This document shows, piece by piece, positions 15,459-19,676 of a stretch of DNA of 64,000 nt. Both the position numbers and the translations under genes were made by a program. The DNA is from Pseudidiomarina marina (lineage in GTDB: Bacteria; Pseudomonadota; Gammaproteobacteria; Enterobacterales; Alteromonadaceae): positions 930,001 through 994,000 of the forward strand of contig NZ_PIPZ01000001.1 of NCBI RefSeq assembly GCF_003987045.1, written 5' to 3'. Every line of letters begins with the position of its first letter. Within the stretch, counting starts at the first letter, position 1. The notes under the pieces were generated by a model. That model had not been told where the DNA came from. It did no database searches and was given only the letters and a program-made list of their open reading frames with translations.

Positions 15459-15495
15459 CGTTAATCGTTATTCGTTAATCGTTATTGGTTATTTG
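15459..15495. repeat. Half copy of the CGTTATT-heptamer repeat, overlapping the symporter 3' end
   Basis: It is about five degenerate heptamers (CGTTAAT/CGTTATT/GGTTATT) matching one arm of the full elements downstream. It spans the stop codon at 15475-15477 and encodes the last residues (QQITNND) of the symporter. The core and the second arm are absent. Confidence 0.75.
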
Positions 15496-16716
15496 TTGAG
15501 CGTTGCTTGATGATGGCTGTGCTTGCTGATTGCTTCTACCGAGAACGACAGATACAGCCATGTCGCCGGTCACGTTTGTTGCGGTTCGCGCCATATCGAT
15601 AATGCGATCAATCGCAGCAATGAACGCAATACCCTCCAGCGGTAATCCGATAGCGTTCAGCGTCACTGTTAACATAACCATCGCCGTTCCAGGTACGCCT
15701 GCCGTACCCACTGACGCTAACGTAGCTGTCAACGTAATCAACATGTAGTCTGCCCAGTCTAGCGGAATACCGTAAATTTGTGCAATAAAGATAGAGGCAA
15801 TCGCTGGGTATATCCCACCACAACCGTCCATATTAATGGTTGCACCTAGGGGCAGTACAAAGCTAGCGTACTCTTTCTGAACACCCAATTTTTCCGTAAT
15901 CGCTTGGTGCGCCGCCGGAATTGTGCCGAAACTACTGCAGGTTGTAAAAGCGACCAATTGCGCTGAGAACACCGATTTAAAGAAAAACCAAGGCGACATA
16001 CCGGCTAAACGAACCATGGTGCCATACACCAATACAATATGCAGAATACATGCCAGATAAATCGCACCAATAAACGCCGCCAACGGCGTCAAGCTTGCTA
16101 ATCCATAGTGCCCGACAACCCAAGCCATCAAGCCCAACACGCCGAACGGCGTCAGTTCAAGCACCATCTTGGTAATGCGATACATCACCTGAGCGCCAGC
16201 CTTCATGACATCGCCAAACGGCTTCGCTGCGTCGCCCAACTGATTAATTGCTACACCTACAAGAGCCGCGAATACCACAATCTGAATGACATTACCTTCA
16301 GCCAATGCCGCAATTGGATTGGTCGGAATAAAATTTAAAAATACGTCAATGGGCCCTGGCACATCTTTAGGCTGGTAATTACTGTCAGCAACCAAATCAG
16401 GCGATGGGGTAATGTCTAACAGTTGCGCAACAGATAATCCAATTAAACTGGCTATGACCGCCGTCAGCAGAAACAAACCAATGGTCTGCACACCGATTTT
16501 GCCAGCCTTTTCGCCGCTACCAAGCTGCAAAATAGCACTCACAATGGCGAAGAAAATTAACGGCGCCACCAACATTTTCAGCGCGTTGATAAACAACGTG
16601 CCTAGCGGACGCAGTGCTTGCGCGGCTTCAGGCTGCGCCACACCAATGATTACACCTAGCGCAAAAGCACCAAGTACACGCTGCCAAAATGGAATTGCAA
16701 ACCAAGCCTTAAACAT
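15475..16716 (-). CDS. Dicarboxylate/amino acid:cation symporter (DAACS family)
   Basis: This is a 413-residue integral membrane carrier of the glutamate/aspartate/C4-dicarboxylate symporter family (GltP/DctA-like). Several hydrophobic helices are visible. The substrate- and ion-binding C-terminal core has the serine-rich loop TTCSSFGTIPA, the NMDGCGGIYPAIA motif of helix TM7, and GTAGVPGTA in the re-entrant hairpin region. The exact substrate cannot be assigned. It is the first of three genes inserted between dapB and dnaJ. Its last codons and stop fall within a half copy of the local repeat, so the tail may have been rewritten by that element. Confidence 0.92.
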   Translation of the reverse strand: MFKAWFAIPFWQRVLGAFALGVIIGVAQPEAAQALRPLGTLFINALKMLVAPLIFFAIVSAILQLGSGEKAGKIGVQTIGLFLLTAVIASLIGLSVAQLLDITPSPDLVADSNYQPKDVPGPIDVFLNFIPTNPIAALAEGNVIQIVVFAALVGVAINQLGDAAKPFGDVMKAGAQVMYRITKMVLELTPFGVLGLMAWVVGHYGLASLTPLAAFIGAIYLACILHIVLVYGTMVRLAGMSPWFFFKSVFSAQLVAFTTCSSFGTIPAAHQAITEKLGVQKEYASFVLPLGATINMDGCGGIYPAIASIFIAQIYGIPLDWADYMLITLTATLASVGTAGVPGTAMVMLTVTLNAIGLPLEGIAFIAAIDRIIDMARTATNVTGDMAVSVVLGRSNQQAQPSSSNAQQITNND

Positions 16717-16730
16717 AACACCTCTTTAAG

Positions 16731-16901
16731 AACGTTATTCGTTATTCGCTATTCGTTGTTCGTTATTGGTTATTGGTTATTCGTGGTTTTGTCACGGTCT
16801 TTAGCTCCGTTCAAAGTTATCACTAGGCTTTGTGCGGAAACCTGACCAACCAGTTGCGCGATCTCACGAATAACCAATAACGAACAACGAATAACGCTTT
16901 T
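16731..16901 (+). repeat. Palindromic heptamer repeat element, copy A
   Basis: It is a 170-bp element. The left arm (16733-16785) is made of CGTTATT/CGTTGTT/GGTTATT heptamers, the core is about 78 bp, and the right arm (about 16865-16900) is the inverted complement of the left. It lies between the symporter start and the gdx promoter. Copy B is an inverted, nearly identical copy, with 3 mismatches across the core by eye. It contains no ORF. Confidence 0.88.
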
Positions 16902-16944
16902 GCGCTGTATTGTACTAACGCTGGCTGGCGTGCTTTAGTTCATT

Positions 16945-16974
16945 TTGGACTGACTTATAACCGAGTGATAGAAT
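16945..16974 (+). promoter_or_regulatory. Sigma-70 promoter of gdx
   Basis: A -35 TTGGAC (16945-16950) and a -10 TAGAAT (16969-16974) are separated by 18 bp. The predicted start, near 16981, is exactly where the riboswitch hairpins begin, which supports both calls. Confidence 0.6.
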
Positions 16975-16981
16975 TCTCAGC

Positions 16982-17069
16982 AGAGGACGACCTCTCCCAA
17001 TCTGGGCCCACTCGAATTATCTAAGGGATAACTGACCAGGACGACCTGGCGCTGGAAAACAGGAGCGCC
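16982..17069 (+). ncRNA. Guanidine-II (mini-ykkC) riboswitch
   Basis: Two small hairpins with identical ACGA tetraloops are visible. Hairpin 1 is AGAGG-ACGA-CCTCT (16982-16995) and hairpin 2 is CCAGG-ACGA-CCTGG (17036-17049), with a 40-nt linker. This is the hallmark of the mini-ykkC/guanidine-II class, which controls guanidinium exporters. The 3' side of hairpin 2 shares its last GG with a competing GGCGC/GCGCC stem (17048-17052 with 17065-17069) that encloses the AGGAG ribosome site (17061-17065). Guanidine binding would therefore free the ribosome site. The mechanism is inferred; the class assignment is strong. Confidence 0.92.
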
Positions 17070-17071
17070 CT

Positions 17072-17386
17072 ATGGCTTGGCTCTATCTTTTTACTGCAGG
17101 TGTTTTTGAAATTATTTGGGCGTTTGCAATGAAGCAATCATTTGGCTTTACTCGCCCCTTCGCTACCACCATCACAATTATTGCGATGCTCATTAGCTTC
17201 TGGCTACTTGCCGTAGCCATGCGCACTATTCCGCTCGGAACGGCCTACACAATTTGGACAGGAATTGGAGCGGTAGGCGCTTTTGCAGTAGGAATTTGGT
17301 TTCTCGGCGAACCTGTCACGCCCCTGAGGCTGTTAGCTGCCGCATTGATTGTCGCAGGCTTAATTCTAATGAAACTCGCCAGCTAA
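17072..17386 (+). CDS. gdx: Guanidinium exporter Gdx (SugE-type SMR protein)
   Basis: This is a small multidrug resistance family proton antiporter of 104 residues with four transmembrane helices. The essential membrane glutamate (about residue 13) lies in GVFEIIWAFAMKQS. Helix 2-3 features GTAYTIWTGIGAVGA and the GEPVTPLRL loop are typical of the SugE/Gdx subgroup rather than EmrE. The upstream guanidine-II riboswitch makes guanidinium export the specific function. It is a single-gene unit lying between two inverted copies of a repeat element (A and B) and may have arrived as a cassette. It was formerly named sugE. Confidence 0.95.
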   Translation: MAWLYLFTAGVFEIIWAFAMKQSFGFTRPFATTITIIAMLISFWLLAVAMRTIPLGTAYTIWTGIGAVGAFAVGIWFLGEPVTPLRLLAAALIVAGLILMKLAS

Positions 17387-17392
17387 AAATGC

Positions 17393-17544
17393 AAAAGCGT
17401 TGTTCGTTATTCGTTATTGGTTATTCGTGAGATCGAGCAACTGGTTGGTCAGGTTTCCGCACAAAGCCTAGTGATAACTTTGAACGAAGCTAAAGAGCGT
17501 GACAAAACCCCGAATAACGAGTAACGAACAACGAATAACGCTTT
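17393..17544 (-). repeat. Palindromic heptamer repeat element, copy B (inverted relative to A)
   Basis: The reverse complement reproduces copy A, with terminal heptamer arms and a core that differs by about 3 of 78 positions. It begins 6 bp after the gdx stop and ends 4 bp before the stop of the converging protease gene. The long palindromic arms could also act as a terminator for both genes. Confidence 0.88.
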
Positions 17545-17548
17545 ACTT

Positions 17549-18361
17549 TTAAAGGGTGCAGAGCGGTTTGCGGCGCTGTGATGCTGCCTGCTGATAAAGC
17601 TCCTGAACCTTAGGCGCATACGCCTCTAATGCCTGAATACGAGACTGTGGTGAAGGATGCGTTGAGAGAAATTCAGGCGTATTAGCACCGCCAATTTTGG
17701 CCATATTCCGCCACAAATTAGCAGCTTCGGCTGGGTTGTAACCGGCCGCTGCCATATAATCCATACCTAACTGATCTGATTCACTTTCGTGAACACGTGA
17801 GTACGGCAACAAAACGCCAACTTGCGCACCAATACCGAGCGCAGCCATTGCCAATGCCGCGGTTTCGCTATCAAGATTTTCAGAAACCAAGACGGAACCG
17901 ACCTGTAAACCTAGGCCAACGGCAAACTGATTCGACATCCGCTCATTCCCGTGGTCAGCGATGACGTGGGCAATTTCATGACCAATAACCGCCGCCAACT
18001 GATGCCGATTTTCAGCTATTTTTAAAAGCCCTGAATACACCCCGATATTTTCGCCGGGTAGCGCAAACGCGTTTACCTGCTCACTATCGAATACAGTAAC
18101 GTCCCACTGTCTGTCCCGCCAAGGACTTGGCAAAACTGCAATCAAATCATCAGTGATACAACGCACGTAAGCATTCGTGCGTGCATCGGTACTAATTTTT
18201 TCTTTCGCTTTTAATTGGGCGTAGCTATCGTCACCCAAAGAGGCTAATTGACCACTGGAAAATAGCATCAACTGACTACGCCCAGTCGGCGACTCAGTGC
18301 ATCCGCTTAGTATTAGGCTGCTCGCTAAGGCGGCAATACCGATTTTCATCCAATGACCCAT
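17549..18361 (-). CDS. M48-family zinc metalloprotease, lipoprotein (LoiP/YggG-like)
   Basis: The 270-residue product has a lipoprotein signal peptide with lipobox LSGC (Cys about residue 21). It also has the zinc-binding HEIAH motif (GHEIAHVIADHGNERMS) and a downstream glutamate in ESESDQLGMDYMAAAGYNP. These define an M48 peptidase anchored in the periplasm, probably at the outer membrane, and acting in envelope protein quality control. The conserved STHPSPQSRIQAL motif follows. It is flanked by repeat copies B (downstream) and C (upstream). The family is confident, while identity with LoiP itself is inferred. Confidence 0.9.
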   Translation of the reverse strand: MGHWMKIGIAALASSLILSGCTESPTGRSQLMLFSSGQLASLGDDSYAQLKAKEKISTDARTNAYVRCITDDLIAVLPSPWRDRQWDVTVFDSEQVNAFALPGENIGVYSGLLKIAENRHQLAAVIGHEIAHVIADHGNERMSNQFAVGLGLQVGSVLVSENLDSETAALAMAALGIGAQVGVLLPYSRVHESESDQLGMDYMAAAGYNPAEAANLWRNMAKIGGANTPEFLSTHPSPQSRIQALEAYAPKVQELYQQAASQRRKPLCTL

Positions 18362-18383
18362 AACCCCTCCTAAATGCGTTTCT

Positions 18384-18532
18384 CGTTATTCGTTATTCGT
18401 TATTCGTTATTCGTGGGTTTTTCACGCTCTTAAGCGAATTTCCAAATTATCGCTTTGTTCTGTGCGGAGACTTAAACCAATCGGTTACCCGATCTCACGA
18501 ATAACCAATAACGAACAACGAATAACGCTTTT
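18384..18532 (+). repeat. Palindromic heptamer repeat element, copy C
   Basis: It has the same orientation and layout as copy A, with a left arm of four near-perfect CGTTATT units, a core, and an inverted right arm ending in GCTTTT. The core has diverged clearly from A and B but keeps blocks such as CTGTGCGGA and CGATCTCACG. It lies between the M48 gene and the dnaJ stop codon. Confidence 0.85.
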
Positions 18533-18536
18533 CATT

Positions 18537-19676
18537 CTATCCGCGAAGGTCGTCGAAGAATTTGCGGACACCATCAAAGAAGCCCTTTTCTTTCGGCCGA
18601 TACTTGCCCGCCTCTTCGCCTGTGCCCATCGATTCTTCAAGTTCACGCAATAAGTCGCGTTGTTGCTCCGATAAATTTACCGGCGTTTCAATCACTACTT
18701 TGCAAATCAAATCGCCTACCGCGCCTGTGCGAACTGATTTCACACCTTTGCCACGCAAACGGAACAACTTACCAGTTTGTGTCTCGGCAGGAACTTTCAG
18801 TTTCACTTTACCTTCAAGAGTTGGTACTTCGATGTCTCCACCCAAAGCGGCGCGAGTGAAACTAAGTGGTACTTCACAGTATAGATTATTTCCATCACGT
18901 GCAAAGATTGGGTGCTCACGCACATGCACTTGCACATACAAATCGCCAGCCGGCGCGCCCATCTCACCGGCTTCACCTTCGCCACTTAAGCGAATTCTGT
19001 CGCCTGTATCAACGCCTGCTGGAATCTTAACTGATAGGGTTTTGGTGCGCTCAACCCGCCCTTCACCGTGACACGTGCGGCAAGGGTCTTTGATTACTTT
19101 GCCGCGACCTCGACAGTGTGGACATGGCTGTTGTACCGCAAAAAAGCCCTGACGCATTTGAATCTGACCTGAACCATGACAATGGCTACAAGTTTCAGCT
19201 CCGCTACCCGCTTTAGCACCACTACCATCACAGTCTTCACAAGTGCTTAATTTTGGTATTTTCAACTCAACTTCTTTGCCACGAACCGCTTCTTCTAAGC
19301 TAAGTTCGAGGTTGTAGCGTAAATCGGCGCCACGTTGCGCTTGCGCTCGCCCCCGACGGCCGCCACCACCAAAAATATCACCGAACACATCACCAAAAAT
19401 ATCTGCAAAATCAGCGGCGCCTGCACCACCACCAAAACCACCTTGTCCTTGCTCAAATGCAGCATGACCATATTGATCGTAAGCCGCACGTTTTTGCGGA
19501 TCTGATAATACTTCGTACGCCGCACGCACCTCTTTGAATTTCATCTCGAGGTCTTTATCGCCTTTGGTACGGTCAGGATGGTACTTCATCGCCAACTTTT
19601 TGTAGGCTTTTTTGATGTCGCGTTCACTGGCATCTTTGCTGACACCCAGCACTTCATAAAAATCTGGTTTCGACAT
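18537..19676 (-). CDS. dnaJ: Co-chaperone DnaJ (Hsp40)
   Basis: DnaJ delivers unfolded clients to DnaK and stimulates its ATPase. The 379-residue product has an N-terminal J domain with the HPD motif (KYHPDRT, about 33-35) and a Gly/Phe-rich linker (about 70-110). A zinc-finger region with four CxxCxGxG-type repeats (about 148-210) and the C-terminal substrate-binding domain follow. It lies after dnaK, with a long stem-loop in the gap. Copy C of the repeat begins 5 bp after its stop. Confidence 0.98.

Follow-up and report, generated by a model that had tools for sequence, protein, structure and literature searches.

Heptamer-armed intergenic palindromes of Pseudidiomarina accompany genes of the IVP/S23p family

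Three palindromic elements, which we refer to as A, B and C, lie among protein-coding genes in a 64,000-nucleotide stretch of the Pseudidiomarina marina genome (C1:930001-994000), referred to here as the window; the genome as a whole (G000) is 2.41 Mb long and 99.97% complete. Each element consists of two inverted arms of tandem 7-bp units around a core, and arrays of such heptamers are strongly associated with genes of the IVP/S23p family, one of which lies between two heptamer arms elsewhere in the same genome. The features of the locus, in window coordinates, are as follows.

16731..16901, no strand: element A, with left arm ~16733-16785 (seven heptamer units), core ~16786-16864 and right arm ~16865-16900
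17393..17544, no strand: element B, with arms ~17398-17428 and ~17512-17540 and the core between them
~18377..18532, no strand: element C, with arms ~18377-18415 and ~18496-18527
15459..15493 (approximate), + strand: one-sided heptamer array in the gltP-dapB gap, running into the end of gltP
15475..16716, - strand: gltP-like sodium:dicarboxylate symporter, neighbour of A, called from its open reading frame (ORF) and synteny
17072..17386, + strand: putative gdx-like small exporter between A and B, a name taken from the preliminary description
17549..18361, - strand: putative M48-type protease gene between B and C, likewise named there
18537..19676, - strand: dnaJ, adjoining C, called from its ORF and synteny

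The names gltP-like (15475..16716) and dnaJ (18537..19676) are presumptive.

The preliminary description of this DNA, made from its letters alone, reported three palindromes with inverted heptamer arms, and all three are present where it placed them and in the form that it described. The arm units are CGTTATT, CGTTGTT and GGTTATT, inverted around the core, the outer arm ends are close to GCAAAAGC, and a script-defined cut gives core lengths of 78, 78 and 86 bp for A, B and C. As it had judged, the cores of A and B are mutually inverted and nearly the same (96.3% identity over 82 bp, or three differences), and that of C is more diverged, at 75% identity to B and 73% to A; the three cores are related to one another. 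Element A is set 14 nt away from the gltP start codon (16716), B has the gdx stop codon on one side and that of the M48 gene on the other, and C is bounded by the start codon of M48 (18361) and the stop codon of dnaJ (18537). The arms are A+T-rich, and RNA folding of 147-150-nt stretches gives z-scores against shuffles of -9.7 for A, -6.5 for B and -8.7 for C. A three-unit pattern allowing up to three mismatches has 20 matches in the window and none in 100 shuffles. A terminator scan of 16600-18700, which admits loops of 3-8 nt only and is therefore blind to such long hairpins, found three sites where 2.5 were expected. The only Rfam candidate, the microRNA precursor MIR837 (26.6 bits against a gathering threshold of 117, E 0.019), was rejected as a chance match to a long hairpin.

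Among neighbouring genes, M48 has its nearest named homologues in 'Idiomarina sp. 34-48-12' (94%) and P. tainanensis (89%). Of 20 relatives (loci L031-L050), four have gdx at this site, namely P. tainanensis, P. donghaiensis and both P. indica loci, and in the other 16 it was not found. In L031 it is absent and, by eye, the break falls at the B arm, but gdx was also not found in 15 other relatives. The A/B pair may in principle invert gdx or move it as a cassette, as the preliminary description had suggested. Upstream of gdx, at 16980-17060, are two ACGA-loop hairpins separated by a long linker, which resemble the guanidine-II (mini-ykkC) riboswitch; no Rfam match to it is listed, however. Downstream of M48, L035 and L036 carry a separate repeat family of tandem GC-rich units starting GTAGCCCGGCGTT. 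Arrays resembling that at 15459-15493, which the preliminary description missed, occupy the same place in L031 and in L033-L036.

The elements belong to a family whose spread through the genome is invisible from the window. A search for further copies had been advised, and BLAST with B returns 129 matches in the genome, the majority to the arms alone, so that the element is far from confined to this locus. The exact three-unit pattern of what we call type 1 (CGTTATT) has 113 matches in the genome against one in a reversed control; of the 117 other genomes in the family sample, 2 have a match to it. We compared two 400-kb samples, one from this genome (C1:740001-1140000) and one from P. tainanensis. 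A sequence-blind scan for tandem repeats in the first yields 35 runs of period 7, against 0-5 at each of the other periods from 4 to 13, and 14 at period 14. Two heptamer classes cover the period-7 runs, type 1 and a type 2 (GATATTA), and an arm matrix at a score of 18, trained on the same samples on which it was tested, recognises 122 arms across both samples and none in reversed sequence. The P. marina sample accounts for 64 arms, 26 of type 2 and 38 of the other class. Among 45 paired elements the two arms are always of the same type and never mixed; the numbers of type 1 and type 2 pairs are 13 and 10 in P. marina, and 1 and 21 in P. tainanensis. The number of units differs from copy to copy, the inverted outer ends have the consensus gCAAaagC, and one type-2 element is nested within a type-2 core (C1:1114118-1114277). 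A third class of palindrome, with short CGTTATT ends and inner TTCGTCCGCTTCGCTGTTCG-like arms, is seen in P. tainanensis (C1:670825 and 887086), in the C1:861943 region of P. marina, upstream of gltP in L033, and at IVP loci L098-L101.

Clusters of arms lie between genes in 33 of 33 cases in P. marina and 31 of 31 in P. tainanensis, with home-made gene calls and an overlap of up to 30 nt tolerated; three in P. marina (by 15-21 nt) and six in P. tainanensis actually overlap a gene end. Among 68 stop-side cases, 28 have the arm at a distance of 9-12 nt from the codon, compared with none of 60 on the start side, a range picked after the distances had been seen. The proposal that these are non-autonomous elements like miniature inverted-repeat transposable elements (MITEs) or repetitive extragenic palindromes (REPs) thus stands as regards a dispersed, intergenic family, and is unsupported for REPs in the strict sense, no Y1 or RAYT transposase having been found in the genome. 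Similar cores are clustered: their median separation is 4.2 kb in P. marina, where shuffling gives 150 kb (0 of 5000 shuffles), and 35 kb in P. tainanensis, where it gives 134 kb (13 of 5000).

Comparison of orthologous sites shows that they tend to be occupied in both species, by different sequences. Twenty-seven of the 33 P. marina clusters could be placed in P. tainanensis (four had no flank match and two were too far apart), and these comprise 8 with the same arm type, 14 with the other type, 4 with another palindrome class and 1 that is nearly empty, the last two categories being assigned by eye. The script itself returned 6 same, 14 other and 7 without an arm; two of the seven, passed over through a length filter, are identical IVP-cassette arms and are counted as same, and among the 14 one (1114110) is ambiguous and two belong to a single tRNA cluster. 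Two tandem tRNA genes (by eye) are surrounded by three palindromes whose type differs between the species, all of them being type 1 in one and type 2 in its relative (P. marina C1:786057-786618; P. tainanensis C1:980764-981252). In the window, sites A and C correspond to type-2 elements in both L031 and L032, and site B to a type-1 element with a related core in L031, where the 32-bp arm on the M48 side is identical and the element as a whole, arms included, aligns as an inverted copy (79% over 137 bp), the core being inverted between its arms. Inversion is likewise seen upstream of gltP, where the L035 core is inverted relative to L034, L032 and L031 and the flanks match directly. The simplest reading of these alignments is that a B-like sequence overwrote A and C in the lineage of the window, a history that the apparent age of C would fit poorly.

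One copy of the palindrome carries a gene. At C1:1115838-1116309, near rpsT and outside the window, an ORF of 118 amino acids encoding an IVP/S23p (23S rRNA intervening-sequence) protein lies between two canonical type-2 arms, a form of the element that the preliminary description also missed. Its product matches PF05635 (E 1.8e-34) and TIGR02436 (E 5.8e-34); the PF05635 match (C1:1115946-1116227) is the only one in the genome, falling outside the window, and no PF05635 ORF lies inside A, B or C. The protein has a solved relative in PDB 2gsc (molecule XCC0516, E 1.3e-22), which comes from Xanthomonas campestris (PMC4990558, PMC3936711) and is a pentamer of four-helix bundles (PMC4990558). The gene is under purifying selection, with a ratio of nonsynonymous to synonymous polymorphism (pN/pS) of 0.09-0.2 between close relatives, on few changes. 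Inverted arms enclosing an S23p/IVP ORF mark an intervening sequence (IVS) of the ribosomal RNA kind, and this copy has them. IVS RNA is excised by RNase III, and the stems predicted for A, B and C are long. The plan of REPs and RAYTs, a gene between two inverted palindromes together with ORF-less genomic copies, is matched in form only, with IVP replacing RAYT. The location differs from that of a 23S rRNA IVS, all 17 IVP loci of the genus having an S20 (rpsT) motif within 1.5 kb and A, B and C lying outside any 23S rRNA gene, with protein genes on both sides. At 15475-15493, and at L103 and L107, the arms extend into reading frames, and GltP and several IVPs have heptamer-encoded C-terminal tails of TNN type.

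Within the genus, IVP is present in 17 of 26 genomes, once in each, the G121 copy being a fragment. Arrays, counted with overlapping matches included and a single pattern that covers only units like those of types 1 and 2, occur in 17/17 genomes with IVP and in 1/9 without it (a single match there) when the IVP locus is included. Away from the IVP locus, and uncorrected for kinship, the figures are 16/17 and 1/9 (Fisher p 5e-5), or 15/17 and 0/9 for at least two matches. The absence of IVP is not a single event, since P. indica and P. terrestris have no IVP at a compact rpsT-murJ spacer and their sisters in a tree, P. indica bin62 (G127) and P. halophila, carry it. Around M48, 23 period-7 runs are seen in 189 kb from 15 species regarded as having IVP (four of these species have none), against one run in 64 kb, in P. 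terrestris, for five species without IVP, a status that was inferred rather than seen at the locus for CB1, homiensis and planktonica. The 17 proteins fall by eye into three subtypes, each with different arms at rpsT, and the IVP cassette therefore seems to have been swapped in place as well. Dispersed heptamers resemble the IVP arms of their own species, with a score of 0.447 against 0.268 in permuted data (91 of 20000), rising to 0.502 against 0.221 (9 of 20000) among eight less related species.

The association extends well beyond the genus. PF05635 is found in 57 of 274 sampled gammaproteobacterial genomes, and we tested the 200-bp flanks of IVP genes for lag-7 repetition, with a threshold of at least 17 of 28 matches. 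Such flanks occur at 17/17 loci of the genus and 28/29 loci of the class, against 17/389 control windows, and a further set of class loci, 7 of which are additional IVP copies in genomes already counted, gives 17/20 against 13/175 controls. Gammaproteobacterial loci outside the genus thus have period-7 arrays in 45 of 49 cases. Twelve plasmid loci, hand-picked from 28 records (11 cyanobacterial and one from Azospirillum), add 10 with lag-7 flanks, the two misses being Picosynechococcus PCC 7003 and Pseudanabaena PCC 7367, and in all heptamer-array flanks are present at 72/78 IVP loci. The RAYT loci of the genus have them in 0/4. The upstream and downstream flanks of IVP are inverted copies of one another (score at least 13) in 65/78, compared with 2/78 for flanks from mismatched loci and 12/78 for the direct orientation, and the heptamer itself differs between genomes.

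Dispersed runs also follow the gene. In 100-kb samples from genomes chosen for long contigs, eight with IVP (800 kb) have 19 period-7 runs, one run of N having been set aside, and eight without it (668 kb) have one. The dispersed heptamer is clearly that of the IVP flank in G273 and partially so in G235 and G399; no IVP-flank heptamer was extracted for comparison in G315. We note that the repeats flanking the Picosynechococcus PCC 7003 gene (L171) are of 8 bp, not 7 bp, and that the IVP genes of three cyanobacterial plasmids (L162, L171 and L172) sit among cas genes; 18 IVP genes in cas loci have been reported (PMC3936711). We found no evidence of a phage origin: a set of 50,697 phage records contained no relative of IVP. 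A search of viral contigs with XCC0516 gave 11 loci, 10 of them with a lag-7 flank at the same threshold and at least four of these alike by their heptamers; the genome search with the same query gave a best identity of 58%, with no Xanthomonas genome among its matches.

We interpret A, B and C as derivatives, lacking the ORF, of IVS-type elements; they would spread locally by copy-replacement, probably with the assistance of IVP. We would put the probability of this at roughly 0.55. The association is observed directly; we infer IVP as its cause, together with the mechanism of copying. An element has a core that can change, enclosed by two inverted arms built of about four 7-bp units or more. 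New copies would overwrite older palindromes nearby when strands of a hairpin anneal at similar arms and templates are switched at the replication fork, and IVP would act in trans as a nucleic-acid-binding helper, assisting annealing or protecting the hairpin. A route through host replication is the most economical, because no reverse transcriptase or Y1 transposase is recognised in the genome (no search covered DDE transposases). An effect on messages has been described for REPs that lie near stop codons, and the position of the arms after stop codons suggests a comparable one here; the transcribed hairpin would then act on messages in the manner of REPs or rRNA IVSs.

Several observations weigh against this interpretation. 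Because IVP constantly stays near rpsT in the genus, kinship explains part of its correlation with arrays. In P. indica bin62 all 10 array matches sit at IVP and none away from it by the pattern used, with 8 in the reversed genome-wide control, and in G138 the reversed control gives 23 against 57 array matches. The species of the window is itself a clear exception to the resemblance of dispersed and IVP heptamers, with type-1 arrays in the window, type-2 arms at its own IVP and a score of 0.00, although type 2 makes up 26 of the 64 arms in its 400-kb sample. Beyond the genus, the dispersed heptamer of G275 differs from its IVP flank, G287, G412 and G276 have arms at IVP and no runs elsewhere in 100 kb, and G235 has six period-8 runs in 100 kb besides. 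Type-2 cores of P. marina taken alone are not clustered (4055 of 5000), and covariation between arms is slight for type 2 (783/899 against 774 shuffled; 312 of 5000) and nil for type 1, so that compensatory evolution of the arms is unsupported. No target-site duplication was recognised by eye at the 27 compared sites, where no systematic search was made. Identity between C and B (75%) is about equal to that of the L031 element (79%), a poor fit to a recent copying of B into C, and we know of no catalytic activity, including nuclease activity, of IVP. Finally, heptamer repeat regions in Xanthomonas are described as unusually stable relative to controls, with no tie to mobile elements (PMC4692102).

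The best of the alternatives, which we nevertheless regard as unlikely, is that the palindromes are host features, such as 3'-end or untranslated-region hairpins, RNase III sites or terminator-like sites, remade by slippage and template switching, and that IVP genes merely land in them or exploit them. Retention of sites while their sequences are swapped would be expected of host features, as would strong folding and the preferred spacing of 9-12 nt after stop codons, and the single array of P. terrestris, with no IVP at its rpsT-murJ site, points the same way, as does the unlikeness of the window arms to the IVP arms of the genome. Arrays are nearly missing, however, from members of the genus without IVP, and the P. 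marina sample is strongly enriched for period 7 alone. Moreover, the arms go with the IVP gene, since G287, G412, G276 and G127 have them at IVP alone, in the first three as judged within 100 kb.

That the elements are MITEs or REPs moved by a conventional transposase, either RAYT/Y1 or a trans-acting DDE enzyme, seems to us improbable. Orthologous sites are mostly swapped rather than empty in one species and filled in the other, and Y1_Tnp (PF01797) has no match in the 99.97% complete genome, and on this ground we reject RAYT/REP mobility for it, DDE transposases not having been searched for. Y1_Tnp is present in 19 of the 26 genomes of the genus, 7 of which have no arrays, and shows no association with arrays (Fisher p 0.37). 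In favour of such a transposase are the dispersal of non-coding palindromes with common outer ends near gCAAaagC, and the nesting of a type-2 element in a type-2 core.

A purely mutational process, in which slippage of heptamers and correction of quasipalindromes act without any protein factor and nothing is copied from site to site, has very little probability in our view. It would explain the variation of unit number among copies; it is hard to hold when cores are common to different sites, A and B sharing a 78-bp core at 96%, beyond what slippage makes, and against it stand both the IVP association and the recurrence of the two heptamer classes, at 38 and 26 arms respectively, within 400 kb. 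Least probable of all is retro-copying, in which IVP would act like the Avd protein of diversity-generating retroelements, to which PF05635 has been likened (PMC10053308), and a reverse transcriptase would home RNA copies into palindromes: replacement at the target does resemble retrohoming, but no RVT_1 match is present in this genome, for which we therefore reject a reverse transcriptase or diversity-generating retroelement, nor in 18 more of the 26, and RVT_1 is not associated with arrays (p 1.0).

A wider proposal, which we put forward tentatively and at somewhat less than even odds, is that IVP/S23p forms a widespread palindrome-spreading system that uses neither transposase nor reverse transcriptase. 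The IVP gene would lie between arms of its own heptamer, ORF-less pairs of arms would be copied over palindromes in the same genome, and the IVSs of rRNA genes, as well as the heptamers of cyanobacteria, xanthomonads and Beggiatoaceae, would be explained too. Among the matches listed from a search of open-licence PMC literature, none joins a heptamer or palindrome system with IVP; in the excerpt of PMC5524665, the four-helix-bundle proteins appear in a table as parts of phage regions, with no repeats linked to them. Intergenic heptamer repeats and the S23p/IVP family have been two separate puzzles, and these data tie them together. Should IVP prove to be a spreading factor, this would constitute a system of palindrome dispersal parallel to RAYT/REP with a different protein, and one open to direct test, with one small gene, one short arm sequence and one genus with natural presence and absence.

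The heptamers of other bacteria offer partial likenesses. Similar intergenic heptamer arrays are known in cyanobacteria as short tandemly repeated repetitive (STRR) sequences. In Xanthomonas (GGGAATC) and Nostoc PCC 7120 (GGGGA(T/C)T) the repeats are mostly intergenic, with four units preferred, and lie near stop codons, and inverted convergent pairs number 70 in Xcc and 75 in Xac (PMC4692102). Xanthomonas campestris has an S23p of its own, XCC0516 (PDB 2gsc); the main text of PMC4692102 discusses G-quadruplexes and contains neither 'helix bundle' nor XCC0516. In Nostoc few repeats are paired and none lies on its plasmids (PMC4692102); the rarity of pairing, together with the unusual stability of the Xanthomonas regions, argues against a simple merger with the IVP system. 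The TAACTGA repeats of Beggiatoaceae, cyanobacteria and Bacteroidetes are intergenic, have many copies and often lie near start or stop codons (PMC4679880), and at locus L114 the IVP gene has TCAGTTA/TCAGTTG arms, the complement of TAACTGA/CAACTGA. They differ in being described as direct repeats, with one indirect in the Maribeggiatoa genome, and no S23p/IVP is linked to them in the excerpted text (PMC4679880).

The closest known systems are two. RAYT/REP elements (Nunvar et al. 2010, PMC2817692) likewise combine a gene between two inverted palindromes with dispersed palindromes that lack an ORF; the gene varies in step with the palindrome, and the abundance of palindromes follows the presence of the gene; the protein here is a PF05635 four-helix bundle rather than a Y1 tyrosine transposase, and the arms are heptamer arrays. 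The IVSs of 23S rRNA in Coxiella and Leptospira share with our elements both inverted arms around an S23p ORF and the protein family itself, and in Coxiella the terminal inverted repeats of the IVS form a 28-bp stem, and the S23p start codon is preceded by three tandem copies of GACAGAT (two in some strains) and one of GACAGAA (PMC4990558). Known IVSs lie inside 23S rRNA genes, whereas the elements described here are scattered among protein genes, in most cases carry no ORF, and switch type while keeping their sites. We therefore take the palindromes of Pseudidiomarina to be a variant of the IVS kind.

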